From the NCBI GenBank assembly GCA_003557485.1, contig PWOI01000162.1:1-16104 (forward strand): a stretch of 16,104 nucleotides of DNA, given 5' to 3'. Below the pieces are notes generated by a model, which searched no databases, was not told where the DNA came from, and worked only from the letters and a program-made list of their open reading frames with translations. Positions 1,899 through 5,889 of the stretch are shown here, piece after piece (the first letter of the stretch is position 1; every line of letters starts with the position of its first letter). The position numbers and the translations under genes are program-made. Source of the DNA: Elusimicrobiota bacterium (lineage in GTDB: Bacteria > CG03 > SLGR01 > PWQF01).

Positions 1899-1943
1899 TT
1901 CTCCATCACGATGATGTAAATCGACTGAAAAGGAGATGGAGAA
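1899..1943 (+). promoter_or_regulatory. inverted repeat that can pair with the start-codon region of the sigma-like gene
   Basis: TTCTCCATC at 1899-1907 is perfectly complementary to GATGGAGAA at 1935-1943, whose last base is the A of the ATG. The 27-base loop holds the main part of the Shine-Dalgarno AAAAGGAG (1928-1935) and can form a small CGAT/ATCG hairpin (1909-1912 with 1920-1923). When folded, the stem would cover the spacer between Shine-Dalgarno and start. A five-codon ORF (ATG at 1869, TAA at 1884-1886) lies upstream in the same leader. Whether this regulates translation is inference. Confidence 0.4.
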
Positions 1944-2452
1944 TGAATTTCGAGGAACTTATAGGTTCCCTGGAACCTCAACTTAAAGCTATTGCTTTTA
2001 AAATAAGTGTCCAGTATCCCGCTTTTGAAGCAGATGACCTGCTTCAGGAAGCGCACCTGTATATCTGGAAAAACTTCATAAGAGAAAAAAATGAGTTTAA
2101 AAGAAGCTACATTCTTCAAGGATGCTGGTTTCATCTCAAAAATTACATAAGGGTTTCAAAAAATAAGTTTCCTGATATGAGCCTTGATAGTGTAACCTGC
2201 GACGACGAAAACTCTCTTGGGGATATTGTAGAATCAGGAGAGGGTGTTTATGAATCTTTTGAGTTTAATGATAGTGTGTCTCAAGTAATGGATAACGGCC
2301 TTTCAAAGAGAGAAAAAGAAGTTTTCATTATGGTTCTTGCCGGCTATACCCTGCGGGAAATAGGGCGCAAACTTAAAGTTTCACACGTAATGGTTCATAA
2401 GGTAATAAAAAGCATAAGAAAGAAGGCTTTTAACCATTTTTTTGAGAGTTAA
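1943..2452 (+). CDS. small sigma-70 family (ECF-like) factor
   Basis: A 169-residue protein with the two domains of a minimal sigma factor. Region 2 is seen near residues 10-70, with the core-binding signature DDLLQEAHLYIWKN at 31-44 and an aromatic/basic stretch (CWFHLKNYIR) at 61-70. Region 4 is at 120-161: LSKREKEVF opens it, followed by a helix-turn-helix (YTLREIGRKLKVSHVMVHKV). A 40-residue acidic linker separates them. It would direct RNA polymerase to particular promoters; which ones cannot be read here. The length is typical of ECF sigma factors, but the region 4 wording (REKEVFIMVLAGYTLREIGRKL) also resembles phage-like or LuxR-type HTH proteins. No anti-sigma factor gene adjoins it. 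It has its own promoter and lies just before the ammonium operon. The start is supported by AAAAGGAG seven bases upstream. Confidence 0.8.
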   Translation: MNFEELIGSLEPQLKAIAFKISVQYPAFEADDLLQEAHLYIWKNFIREKNEFKRSYILQGCWFHLKNYIRVSKNKFPDMSLDSVTCDDENSLGDIVESGEGVYESFEFNDSVSQVMDNGLSKREKEVFIMVLAGYTLREIGRKLKVSHVMVHKVIKSIRKKAFNHFFES

Positions 2453-2481
2453 GGTTAACAAAGAGCTTTCTTTTTTACTTG

Positions 2482-2487
2482 TATAGT
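2482..2487 (+). promoter_or_regulatory. candidate -10 box for the ammonium operon leader
   Basis: TATAGT (5 of 6 to TATAAT) directly follows TTG. It would start transcription near 2494, a few bases before the first leader hairpin. No convincing -35 is present at 16-18 bases; TTAACA at 2455-2460 is too far. Read-through from the sigma-like gene is the alternative. Confidence 0.3.
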
Positions 2488-2500
2488 TAAAGGGTATGAT

Positions 2501-2547
2501 GCGCTAATGGCGGCGCGAAATAATTAAAACGAAGGCGTTTTATTTAT
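2501..2547 (+). promoter_or_regulatory. two-hairpin leader with antiterminator, ANTAR-target-like
   Basis: Hairpin P1: GCGCU (2501-2505) pairs with GGCGC (2512-2516), including one U-G pair, leaving the six-base loop AAUGGC. After a short A/T linker comes hairpin P2: TAAAACG (2525-2531) pairs perfectly with CGTTTTA (2536-2542) around AAGG, and after one mismatch four more pairs extend it to 2520-2547. The right half of P2 is the left arm of the terminator at 2532-2578, so P2 and the terminator cannot form together. ANTAR regulators bind two adjacent hairpins with six-base loops carrying A at position 1 and G at position 4, the second overlapping a terminator. P1 fits exactly; P2, drawn with loop GAAGGC, has G at position 1. 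Confidence 0.5.
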
Positions 2548-2583
2548 CTTCAGAGTTTGAAGATGAGTAGAACGCCTTTTTTT
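2532..2583 (+). terminator. intrinsic terminator (attenuator) in the ammonium operon leader
   Basis: The left arm 2532-2552 pairs with the right arm 2558-2578 without interruption: 21 base pairs, three of them G-U, closing a GAGTT loop. Seven T residues at 2577-2583 follow. It lies 80 bases after the sigma-like gene and 33 bases before the porin start. It could simply end the upstream transcript, but its overlap with the competing hairpin at 2520-2547 suggests conditional termination. Confidence 0.8.
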
Positions 2584-2615: not shown

Positions 2616-3311
2616 ATGAAAAGATTGGTTATTTTAGGTGCCGTATTGCTCATTTCTCAGAATGCTGCAGTCGGGGGTGTGTTGGGAGGAACGGGTGTGA
2701 GTATAGACTCAGAAATCGGGATATACTCGAGCTATATCTGGAGGGGTTTTGAGCTTAACGATGAACCTGTTCAGCAGGTTGGAGTTGAGGCTTCCTATGG
2801 TATATTAACTCTTGGTCTGTGGACAAGCTCGGATCTGACATATAAAGAAGATGGTCAGAGCAATGAGATTGACTACTATCTTGATGTAAATAAGGAGGTA
2901 GGGGATTTTTCTTTTTCGGCGGGATATACATATTATGTTTTTCCCTATGATGAATCATATACAGGAGAATTTTCCCTGGGTATCTCTTACGATACTTTTC
3001 TCAGTCCCTCTTTTACCTGGTTTAGGGATCACATTGACGGGGAGGGAAATTATTTTTATTCCGATCTCACTTTGCCGCTGGCTTCAGATGAATCATTTTC
3101 CGCAGACCTGGTTTTGGGAGCAGGAATAAATGATGACCTTTTCATAGACGGACAGGGAGGAGACATATTTATATCGGCGGAATTCAGTCTTCCGCTTTAC
3201 GAAGGAATGGAACTGTCCCCTTCTTTGCTTTATGCTATTCCGTTTGGGGATATGACAGATTATGAGGATAACTCATTCTGCGCGGGAATTACGCTTGGTT
3301 ACGGGTTTTAA
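2616..3311 (+). CDS. TorF family putative porin (Gcw_chp-type outer-membrane protein)
   Basis: A predicted exported beta-barrel protein of 231 residues. The N-terminus (MKRLVILGAVLLISQNAAVG) is a signal peptide with a basic start and hydrophobic core. The mature part starts with a strand followed by YSSYIWRGFELNDEPVQQ, the signature I associate with the TorF/Gcw_chp family; NEIDYYLDV, a GYTYYVFP strand and a series of amphipathic, aromatic-rich, acidic strands follow, ending in GITLGYGF with the terminal Phe of outer-membrane proteins. Members often lie beside amt and PII genes and are thought to pass small nitrogen compounds across the outer membrane, which is not proven. An ATG at 2616 with AAGGAGG at 2604-2610 is preferred over an in-frame TTG at 2601. 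The amt gene follows after 18 bases. Confidence 0.85.
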   Translation: MKRLVILGAVLLISQNAAVGGVLGGTGVSIDSEIGIYSSYIWRGFELNDEPVQQVGVEASYGILTLGLWTSSDLTYKEDGQSNEIDYYLDVNKEVGDFSFSAGYTYYVFPYDESYTGEFSLGISYDTFLSPSFTWFRDHIDGEGNYFYSDLTLPLASDESFSADLVLGAGINDDLFIDGQGGDIFISAEFSLPLYEGMELSPSLLYAIPFGDMTDYEDNSFCAGITLGYGF

Positions 3312-3329: not shown

Positions 3330-4661
3330 ATGAAAATTTTGGTATCAATTGCGTCTTTGTTTCTATCGGGTATGCTTTTTACCGTCCCTTCGGCTTTTGC
3401 CGACAGCAGTGCGCTCTATGTAAGCAAAACCGGCATAGATACAATGTGGGTTCTTACTGCCGCATTTCTGGTGTTTATAATGCAGGCCGGTTTCGGAATG
3501 CTTGAATCAGGATTGGTCAGGACAAAAAATACAACAGATATACTGATGAAAAACTTCCTGGATTTTTGTATGGCATCTATGGGCTTTTTTATTGTGGGAT
3601 ACGCCATAGCTTTCGGAGCGGGCAATTCAATTATGGGTTTTAGCGGGTGGTTTCTTTTCAACGCTCCTGCGGGAGACCTTCCGATACACGCTGAATGGCT
3701 TTTTCACGCTGTTTTTGCCGGTGTGGCTGCGACTATCGTTGCCGGTGGTGTAGCAGGTAGAATGAAGTTTAAGGCATACCTTATGTACTCACTGCTTATG
3801 TCTGCTTTAGTATATCCTTTTGCTGTACGCTGGGTCTGGGGCGGCGGCTGGCTTGAAGGTGTGGGTTTTACTGATTTTGCCGGTTCAACTGTTGTACATG
3901 CCGTTGGCGGGGTAGCTGCTCTGGTAGGAACAATTGTTCTTGGTCCGCGTATAGGTAAATACGGAAAAGACGGGACTCCTAACGCTATTCCAGGACATTC
4001 TATGACTCTGGCGGCATTAGGGACTCTCATATTGTGGTTTGCCTGGTTCGGGTTTAATGCCGGATCTACGCTTGAAGTCGGGGACGGCAGTTTAATAGCC
4101 CATGTGGCCGCTACCACAAATCTTGCGGCTGTGTCAGGCGCCATAGCTGCTATGTTCTTTGCCTGGAGAAAATTTGGGAAACCGGATTTAAGCCTTACAA
4201 TGAACGGTGTTCTTGCCGGGCTTGTCTCCATAACCGCGGGATGCGCTTTTGTTTCTCCCCTGGAGGCAATCGTTATTGGCGGAGCGGGCGGCGTTCTGAT
4301 GATTCTGGGAGTCAGCTTTCTTGACAGGCTGCGTATTGATGACCCGGTTGGAGCTTTCCCGGTACACGGGCTCTGCGGAATATGGGGTACGCTTGCTTTA
4401 GGTATATTCGGACGCAGCTCTATGGGTCTTGCCCGGGACGGACTTCTGCACGGCGGAGGCCTTTCACAGCTGGGAATCCAGGCCCTTGGTACATTCTCAA
4501 TACTGGCTTTTGTTGCAGTTGTAATGGTGCTTGTCTTTAAAATGATAGGTGCGTCTCTGAGCGGAATGAGGGTCTCTCGGGAAGAAGAACTGAAAGGACT
4601 TGATATAAGTATTTACGGGCAGGAAGCTTATTCGGGTTTTCAGATTTTCACTAATCAGTAA
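3330..4661 (+). CDS. amt: ammonium transporter Amt
   Basis: Trimeric inner-membrane channel that recruits ammonium and conducts NH3/NH4+ into the cytoplasm. The 443-residue protein begins with a cleavable signal peptide (likely cut after AFA, residue 24), as in E. coli AmtB, followed by about eleven hydrophobic helices. The pore's twin histidines are visible as His190 in STVVHAVGG and His346 in VHGLCGIWG, and the conserved Asp182 lies in [15 protein letters not shown] (168-175) and [10 protein letters not shown] (237-246) are further family motifs. The cytosolic tail after residue 405 is short, leaving the cytoplasmic face available for PII docking. The gene lies between the porin gene and the PII gene with 18- and 19-base gaps and strong Shine-Dalgarno sites (AAAAAGGAGA here), so the three are probably one operon. 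Confidence 0.97.
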
Positions 4662-4680: not shown

Positions 4681-5022
4681 ATGAAACTTATTACAGCAAT
4701 AATACAGCCGCACAGTCTGCCGGATGTGAAACAGGCGCTTTTCGATGCCAATGTATACAAGATGACTGTTACTAATGTTCTGGGGTGCGGGCAGCAAAAA
4801 GGCTATACGGAAGAATACAGGGGAGTTGTATACGAGGTAAATCTGCTGAAAAAAGTAAGATTGGAAATAGCGGTTAACGAGAATTTCGTTAAGCCCACTA
4901 TTGACGCGATAATAAAAGGCGCCTCCAGCGGTAAAATAGGGGACGGTAAAATTCTTGTAACCGATCTTCAGGAGTGTATAAGAATAAGAACCGGAGAAAG
5001 AGGAGAGAAGGCAATAGGCTGA
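4681..5022 (+). CDS. glnK: nitrogen regulatory protein PII (GlnK/GlnB family)
   Basis: A small trimeric signalling protein that senses 2-oxoglutarate and ATP/ADP and, when paired with amt, usually plugs the Amt channel when nitrogen is plentiful. At 113 residues it has the standard length. The T-loop spans about 37-55 with Tyr51 conserved in RGVVYEV, the residue uridylylated in proteobacteria; ATP-binding features GKIGDGKI (84-91) and the C-terminal [12 protein letters not shown] (101-112) are intact. The usual N-terminal strand reads [10 protein letters not shown], with Ile rather than Val/Lys at some positions. The start follows AAGGAGG at 4667-4673. Pairing with amt argues for GlnK over GlnB, but sequence alone cannot separate these. 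No uridylyltransferase gene is nearby. Confidence 0.95.
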
Positions 5023-5081: not shown

Positions 5082-5138
5082 ATGAAAAAAAATATATGGA
5101 TAGTGAACTCTGGTCTATGCAGTTACCGTGAGGGTTAA
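5082..5138 (+). CDS. possible 18-residue leader peptide before nadE
   Basis: An ATG with AAAGGTG six bases upstream opens an 18-codon frame (MKKNIWIVNSGLCSYREG) that ends in TAA at 5136-5138, overlapping the first codons of nadE in another frame. The Shine-Dalgarno site is better than any seen for nadE itself, so reinitiation or coupling onto nadE is possible. It could equally be chance; the composition gives no regulatory clue such as a run of one amino acid. Confidence 0.3.
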   Translation: MKKNIWIVNSGLCSYREG

Positions 5139-5889
5139 AGAGGAGAAGTGTGAAAAGCGGGTAGTGAGAGACCTGGGTTTACTTAAGGAGTTTCTGGTTC
5201 ATGAAGTAGAGGCTGCAGGTAAAAAGGGACTAGTGGTCGGTGTTTCGGGCGGAGTGGATTCAGCAGCCTGTCTTTACCTGGCAGCTGCTGCCCTTGGGAA
5301 AGAGAAGATAAGAGCGATTTATATGCCTCATAAAGGCGGGTTTGTAAATCCTCACGTAAGTCTTATGTGCGGAAACCTTGGTGTTGATTTAAAAATATAT
5401 GACCTGAGCCGTATAGCTACGATCTTTTCTGATATGACGGGAGAGAGAGATCCTCTGCTTAAGGGAAACTTTGCAGCCCGTCTCCGCAGTGCTTTTCTTT
5501 ACCAGGAGGCGGCCTCCCTGGATATGCTTGTGCTGAATACTTCCAACAGAAGTGAAATAATGACAGGTTATTTTACCAAGTGGGGCGATCAGGCGGGTGA
5601 TATCAGTCCTTTCGGAAATTATTACAAAAGTGAGGTCCAGGAGATTGCGATCTTGCTGGGCGTGCCCGAAGAGATTGTTGCTAAAGCGCCTTCTCCTGAT
5701 TTTTTTGAGGGGCAGAGAGACGAAGAAGAACTTGGGATAAGCTATAGAGATCTGGACAGAGTCCTTGCTGTTCTGGATGGAAATTGTGAATGTAAAATAG
5801 AAGATAAAAAACATTCAAAAGTAAAAGAGCTGTTTGAAAGAAGCCTTCACAAGAGAAACGCTCCCTTAACTGCAAAAAAACCGGGCTGA
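5128..5889 (+). CDS. nadE: NH3-dependent NAD+ synthetase NadE
   Basis: Cytosolic enzyme that adenylates nicotinic acid adenine dinucleotide with ATP and amidates it with ammonia to NAD+. The N-type ATP pyrophosphatase loop SGGVDS is at residues 40-45. Downstream are NTSNRSE, GDQAGDISPFGNYYKSEV and, near the C-terminus, PSPDFFEGQRDEEELGISY, which matches the NadE signature (usually PSA-L-xx-GQ-DE-ELG). There is no glutaminase (nitrilase) domain, so free ammonia is the nitrogen source, consistent with its place after amt and PII. At 253 residues it has the normal short-form length. The start is uncertain: GTG at 5128 has no clear ribosome-binding site and overlaps the small upstream frame; GTG at 5164 also keeps the fold and lies 15 bases after AGGAGAAG. 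Confidence 0.93.
   Translation: MRVKEEKCEKRVVRDLGLLKEFLVHEVEAAGKKGLVVGVSGGVDSAACLYLAAAALGKEKIRAIYMPHKGGFVNPHVSLMCGNLGVDLKIYDLSRIATIFSDMTGERDPLLKGNFAARLRSAFLYQEAASLDMLVLNTSNRSEIMTGYFTKWGDQAGDISPFGNYYKSEVQEIAILLGVPEEIVAKAPSPDFFEGQRDEEELGISYRDLDRVLAVLDGNCECKIEDKKHSKVKELFERSLHKRNAPLTAKKPG

Follow-up and report, generated by a model that had tools for sequence, protein, structure and literature searches.

What controls the ammonium-uptake genes of an uncultured Elusimicrobiota bacterium? A 16,104-nucleotide stretch of contig PWOI01000162.1 (assembly GCA_003557485.1, henceforth termed the window) carries on its forward strand a torF-like porin gene (2616-3311; TIGR02001, E 2.4e-6, below the cut-off of this model), the ammonium transporter gene amt (3330-4661; PF00909, E 7e-123), a gene for a PII signal protein (4681-5022; PF00543, E 5e-27) and the NAD synthase gene nadE (5128-5889; PF02540, E 7e-59). 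The torF ATG at 2616 is preceded by AAGGAGG, whereas the listed reading frame opens at TTG 2601. In the leader of this operon, an initial annotation had seen an attenuator of the type operated by RNA-binding ANTAR proteins. Here, we ask whether the leader is such a switch, which protein would operate it, and from which promoter the operon would be transcribed. As a side observation, nadE recurs beside the nitrogen operon in four genomes from two phyla, and by eye it also lies near the operon at L023, L024 and L026.

Results

Read directly, the operon leader (2484-2583) consists of two hairpins followed by an overlapping intrinsic terminator. The first hairpin, P1 (2500-2517, UGCGCU[AAUGGC]GGCGCG), presents the loop AAUGGC (2506-2511) with A at position 1 and G at position 4, as annotated; its stem has six pairs, two of them U-G, rather than the five originally counted, and it closes with U-G and not with the preferred C-G. 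The second hairpin, P2 (2525-2542, UAAAAC[GAAGGC]GUUUUA), is the candidate antiterminator, and its loop reads GAAGGC (2531-2536), with G at positions 1 and 4. Although P2 itself stands, its description as seven perfect pairs beneath a GAAGGC loop combined two alternatives that cannot both hold, since the seventh pair requires G1 to pair with C6, which leaves an AAGG tetraloop, and the hexaloop leaves six pairs. The energy model favours the tetraloop and gives the hexaloop only with G1-C6 open; the P1 loop is a hexaloop. The linker of 7 nt (2518-2524) falls inside the range of 2 to 25 nt reported for dual-hexaloop RNA targets of ANTAR proteins (PMC8164766).

The terminator described initially, with 21 pairs and seven T residues, is present at 2532-2583 and has the right arm of P2 in common with that hairpin. 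Its predicted energy is -28.1 kcal/mol, and that of P2 is about -4 kcal/mol. When we folded growing transcripts, those truncated at 2541-2565 formed P1 and P2, and from 2575 onward P2 gave way to the terminator, bearing out the mutual exclusion that the shared arm had implied. The 131-nt region has a markedly more stable fold than its shuffles (z -6.8), and the layout of two R..G.. hexaloops with an overlapping terminator occurs once in the window against a mean of 0.013 in 150 dinucleotide shuffles of the window, both strands included. The family's dual hairpin calls for at least three pairs per stem and has G at loop position 4; both stems here have six pairs, both loops have G4, and the exclusion of an intrinsic terminator by P2 places the leader in the attenuator class. 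The published loop rule also includes A at position 1 (PMC3369931, PMC8164766), where the P2 loop has G. We filed the operon leader as a variant because it breaks the strict rule at this one position, yet has the build and placement of the family.

A second leader of the ANTAR type, absent from the initial annotation together with the gene behind it, lies upstream. This gene (1943-2452, forward strand) encodes an ECF-type sigma factor (TIGR02937, E 6.9e-18; 64.8 bits against a cut-off of 42.9, a match to the sigma70-ECF family). It is preceded by a sigma-70-type promoter read from the sequence (TTGACA-N17-TATTAA, 1826-1854) and, directly upstream, by a dual hairpin at 1864-1902 (GCUC[AAUGAA]GAGC, a 9-nt linker and AGAAC[AAAGAC]GUUCU), in which both loops have A1 and G4 as in the strict rule. 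The P2 of this leader and a start-region hairpin at 1898-1944 are mutually exclusive. In the latter, GUUCUCCAUC (1898-1907) pairs with GAUGGAGAAU (1935-1944) over the start codon, a pairing predicted as the minimum-energy structure both for the window and for G001, a genome of the same genus. Because P2 excludes the hairpin that hides the start codon, control should be translational, and the modelled folds point to activation as its direction.

We searched the genome for further hairpins of this kind with covariance models, from whose seed alignments the linkers were trimmed because MAFFT misaligned P1 when given full dual hairpins. With the first model, whose seed included both leaders, the sigma leader was the top match of the whole genome (E 1.7e-4) and the torF leader the second (E 0.016), followed by a match at E 3. 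A model built from Omnitrophota only again ranked the sigma leader first in this genome (E 0.0023), in G001 and in G005 (Elusimicrobia bacterium T1Sed10_83R1), in both of which this leader is conserved; the torF leader was weak under this model (E 8.7). Other R1/R2 matches in the genome (C175, C189 and C203) had chance E-values, the one on C189 lying inside a coding frame, and were set aside.

Between the sigma gene and the operon leader lies the element GTTAAC-N16-TACTTGTA (2454-2483, forward strand), predicted to be recognised by the ECF sigma factor encoded upstream. The promoter had been called weak. It is unique, conserved and adjacent to the sigma gene, and thus appears to be not weak but of a type of its own, GTTAMC-N16-TACTTGTA. 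The pattern GTTAMC-N16-TACTTNTA has this site as its only match in the 2.07-Mb genome, and it matches once each in G001, G005 and G002 (Elusimicrobia bacterium Zod_Metabat.862), directly before an attenuator. Matches in G042 and G053 were discarded as lying within or at the reading frames of unrelated genes. When 12 genomes of the phylum were screened for the sigma factor and the promoter, four had the two together and eight had neither. At the 30 Omnitrophota loci read, the strict promoter form occurs 21 times against 0.005 expected in shuffles. Overall, the fixed-spacing element accompanies the sigma gene in 4 + 23 genomes. The first gene after the sigma-type promoter is often one for a putative outer-membrane protein with the motif 'ATPSTLIWSPSTDIQPY', a family seen at ten loci.

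We infer from these sequence patterns that the sigma factor would transcribe the operon from GTTAAC-N16-TACTTGTA, both the pairing and its specificity being predicted. Alternatively, an ANTAR protein might control the attenuator while the neighbouring sigma gene is unrelated and the promoter is served by a different sigma factor. The sequence-based nature of the link and the position of nadE between sigma gene and promoter in G002 would allow this. However, the promoter comes after the sigma gene in all four sigma-bearing Elusimicrobia-type genomes and within -1 to 90 nt of its stop codon in 23 of 30 Omnitrophota loci, eight relatives and the Omnitrophota genome G062 lack both, and the sigma leaders bear the same hexaloops as the operon leader. 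We therefore regard an unrelated sigma factor as unlikely.

The absence of any ANTAR protein had been named at the outset as a finding that would count against the ANTAR reading. The genome (2.07 Mb in 212 contigs, 87% complete) encodes exactly one (E 1.5e-19), 236 aa long and composed of a GAF and an ANTAR domain, from a gene about 165 nt upstream of the glutamate synthase gene gltB. In an alignment to EutV via PDB 6wsh, in which the chain numbering is two above that of the paper (PMC8934654), the GAF-ANTAR protein retains each of the eight RNA-contacting residues known from the EutV structure solved by crystallography (R142, K143, K147, K149, E160, Y164, R168 and M172; PMC8934654). As of 2012, no member with this architecture had been characterised (PMC3369931). 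The GAF part matches the PtsP and NifA models, both nitrogen-related, which offers a sequence-level hint at the GAF signal; this signal would presumably be nitrogen status.

A search for the same loops before other nitrogen genes had also been proposed at the outset, and similar loops are found in the gltB leader (L001:1726-1850, G000:C143), beside the ANTAR gene. This leader contains three hairpins with A1/G4 loops, one loop being of seven nucleotides and the other two hexaloops (AAGAC[AAAGAA]GUCUU and GGAC[AAUGAU]GUCC), the latter overlapping a strand able to pair with the ribosome site. The gltB leader is probably a further ANTAR target, with control at the level of translation. In related genomes, an apparent glutamate dehydrogenase gene (G002, G006) or amt (G014) follows the ANTAR gene, with similar hairpins in the interval (L011, L021, L017); some of these leaders have a seven-nucleotide second loop, GGC[ARAGNNN]GCC, with no terminator after it. 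The ANTAR gene of G006 (L021:1599-1892) seems to be interrupted by a stop inside the domain, and the adjacent leader shows one clear hairpin, which would fit either a decaying system or a fault in the assembly.

The operon leader is conserved in relatives (G001, G005, G002), across related genera, and in Omnitrophota, before torF, amt, PII and glnA, where gene names outside the window were assigned by eye from translations. G001 has the sigma leader, and there the same promoter and attenuator follow the sigma gene but lead into glnA and not torF. The gene order is sigma-torF-amt-PII-glnA-nadE in G005 and gltD-sigma-nadE-torF-amt-amt-PII-glutamine synthetase in G002. In the Omnitrophota genome G061, two tandem dual hairpins with terminators precede the sigma gene, and promoter-attenuator units recur four times after it, ahead of PII-torF-amt-PII, two amt-PII pairs and a glutamine synthetase gene. 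In G062, which has neither sigma gene nor promoter, attenuators precede gltB, torF and a glutamine synthetase gene, the last followed by the ANTAR gene. The genes next to the 23 Omnitrophota leaders include those for Amt, PII and TorF-like porins as well as for an amino acid permease and a further putative outer-membrane protein. Many Omnitrophota leaders (L074-L103) additionally have a second, single hexaloop hairpin with its own terminator, e.g., AGAC[GCAGGC]GUCU, an apparent tandem arrangement of attenuators.

Conservation and covariation of P1 and P2 in relatives, whose lack had been specified beforehand as refuting the proposal, were found. Across eight promoter-anchored leaders, pairing holds for 95% of P1 and P2 positions, and double changes number 16, compared with 6.4 in shuffled controls; P1 in 24 distinct sequences reaches 98% with 21 double changes against 4.3, and the sigma leaders 83% with 12 against 4.6, these percentages being biased upward because the hairpins were picked by eye. 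P1 was chosen in this way because a scan for the longest stem only mostly found terminators. Slid controls gave far lower pair counts. Many Omnitrophota P2 stems comprise only three pairs followed by a mismatch. Orthologues of the sigma factor occur in 81 of 285 Omnitrophota genomes, and an ANTAR protein is encoded in 77 of these 81 as compared with 134 of the other 204 (Fisher P 2.5e-8, ignoring relatedness), although co-occurrence alone is weak evidence since ANTAR proteins are common in this phylum. In 20 Omnitrophota genomes, counted by hand, the ANTAR gene lies less than 3 kb upstream of the sigma gene on the same strand.

The same 24 P1 sequences, from the window and its relatives, bear on the deviating loop. 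All 24 have G at position 4, whereas position 1 is A in 19 and G in five; at the orthologous P1 site ahead of the sigma gene, the window has AAUGAA and G002 has GAUGAA. The crystal structure of EutV shows no specific contact at loop position 1 (PMC8934654). The position-1 G of the P2 loop, correctly noted in the initial annotation but taken there as a mismatch with the family, is on these alignments a recurrent lineage variant, and the A1 rule may be too strict in searches for ANTAR targets.

These data also bear on whether the hexaloops are coincidental, the terminator being either constitutive or part of an attenuator run by a factor other than ANTAR. Such a reading could draw on the great strength of the terminator relative to the weak P2 and on the violation of the A1 rule. 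Yet torF begins about 33 nt past the T run and a conserved promoter precedes the terminator, so that a constitutive terminator would silence the operon; moreover, P1 would be useless in a plain terminator, but it is conserved, covaries and invariably keeps G4. We consider coincidence very improbable. Least credible of all, and to our minds negligible, is control by leader-peptide attenuation or a metabolite riboswitch: a short frame does exist at 2507 (ATG-GCG-GCG-CGA-AAT-AAT-TAA) and glutamine riboswitches can control nitrogen genes, but this frame has no ribosome site and was dropped as a leader peptide because it is not kept in G001 or G005, an Rfam scan at E values up to 10 returned nothing relevant and no riboswitch, and the conserved parts are two small loops and no aptamer core.

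The single ANTAR protein, the conservation and the covariation thus support the initial reading of an ANTAR-type leader, and we are highly confident that an ANTAR-dependent attenuator, an ANTAR-gated sigma leader and a sigma-driven operon form one circuit. We infer RNA binding and antitermination by the GAF-ANTAR protein, and the circuit would operate as follows. When no ANTAR protein is active, the terminator at 2532-2583 would form and torF-amt-PII would stay untranscribed. Active GAF-ANTAR would bind the P1 hexaloop and then the P2 hexaloop, holding P2 so that RNA polymerase could read through. The same protein would hold P2 of the leader at 1864-1902 and thereby free the start region of the sigma gene for translation, and the sigma factor would then drive the operon from its promoter. 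Since the operon promoter is likewise attributed to this sigma factor, ANTAR would be required both for sigma and for read-through, which would constitute a coherent feed-forward (AND-type) gate.

Discussion

Our analysis suggests a concrete nitrogen-control circuit for uncultured lineages. Beyond this operon, we think it probable that Elusimicrobia-type bacteria and Omnitrophota share a nitrogen circuit. Its single GAF-ANTAR protein would switch on a dedicated ECF sigma factor via the sigma leader, acting on translation in one group and through antitermination in the other. The same protein would gate the operons of that sigma factor again, a purine at loop position 1 being sufficient. The circuit would couple an alternative sigma factor to an RNA-binding antiterminator, two layers of control that are not linked in the literature consulted. 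The leaders described here provide a candidate target for GAF-ANTAR proteins, and GTTAMC-N16-TACTTGTA followed by two hexaloops offers a simple signature for finding the regulon in other genomes. Our literature search returned no paper that connects ANTAR proteins to an ECF sigma factor, to Elusimicrobia or to Omnitrophota; a study of groundwater Elusimicrobia from 2020 may touch on ANTAR-type hairpins near nitrogenase paralogues.

Several known systems share parts of this design. Closest in layout are the eut leaders of Enterococcus faecalis, controlled by EutV/EutW (PMC3369931, PMC8934654), which likewise have two small hexaloop hairpins with P2 overlapping a terminator, and the RNA-contact residues of EutV are all kept here. 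In contrast to the phosphorylated response regulator of that system, the protein here is a one-component GAF-ANTAR, G is allowed at loop position 1, and the target operon, for ammonium uptake, has an ECF-type promoter. Ramesh et al. (2012) likewise predicted ANTAR attenuators before genes for PII, ammonium transporters and glutamate synthase, with predicted regulons covering glutamate synthase, nif and ammonium transport (PMC3369931). Those regulons belong to other phyla, and the text consulted here does not tie them to a dedicated sigma factor.

Translational ANTAR targets of mycobacteria and other actinobacteria similarly place a dual hexaloop hairpin near the ribosome site (PMC8164766). In those targets, the protein is believed to mask the ribosome site once bound and to repress, whereas a held P2 should here expose the sigma start region, so that activation is predicted. 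The nasF leader of Klebsiella and its regulator NasR also combine a one-component ANTAR protein with antitermination, and there the A1/G4 hexaloops are closed by C-G (PMC7496416). NasR responds to nitrate through a NIT sensor domain; the protein described here has a GAF domain instead.
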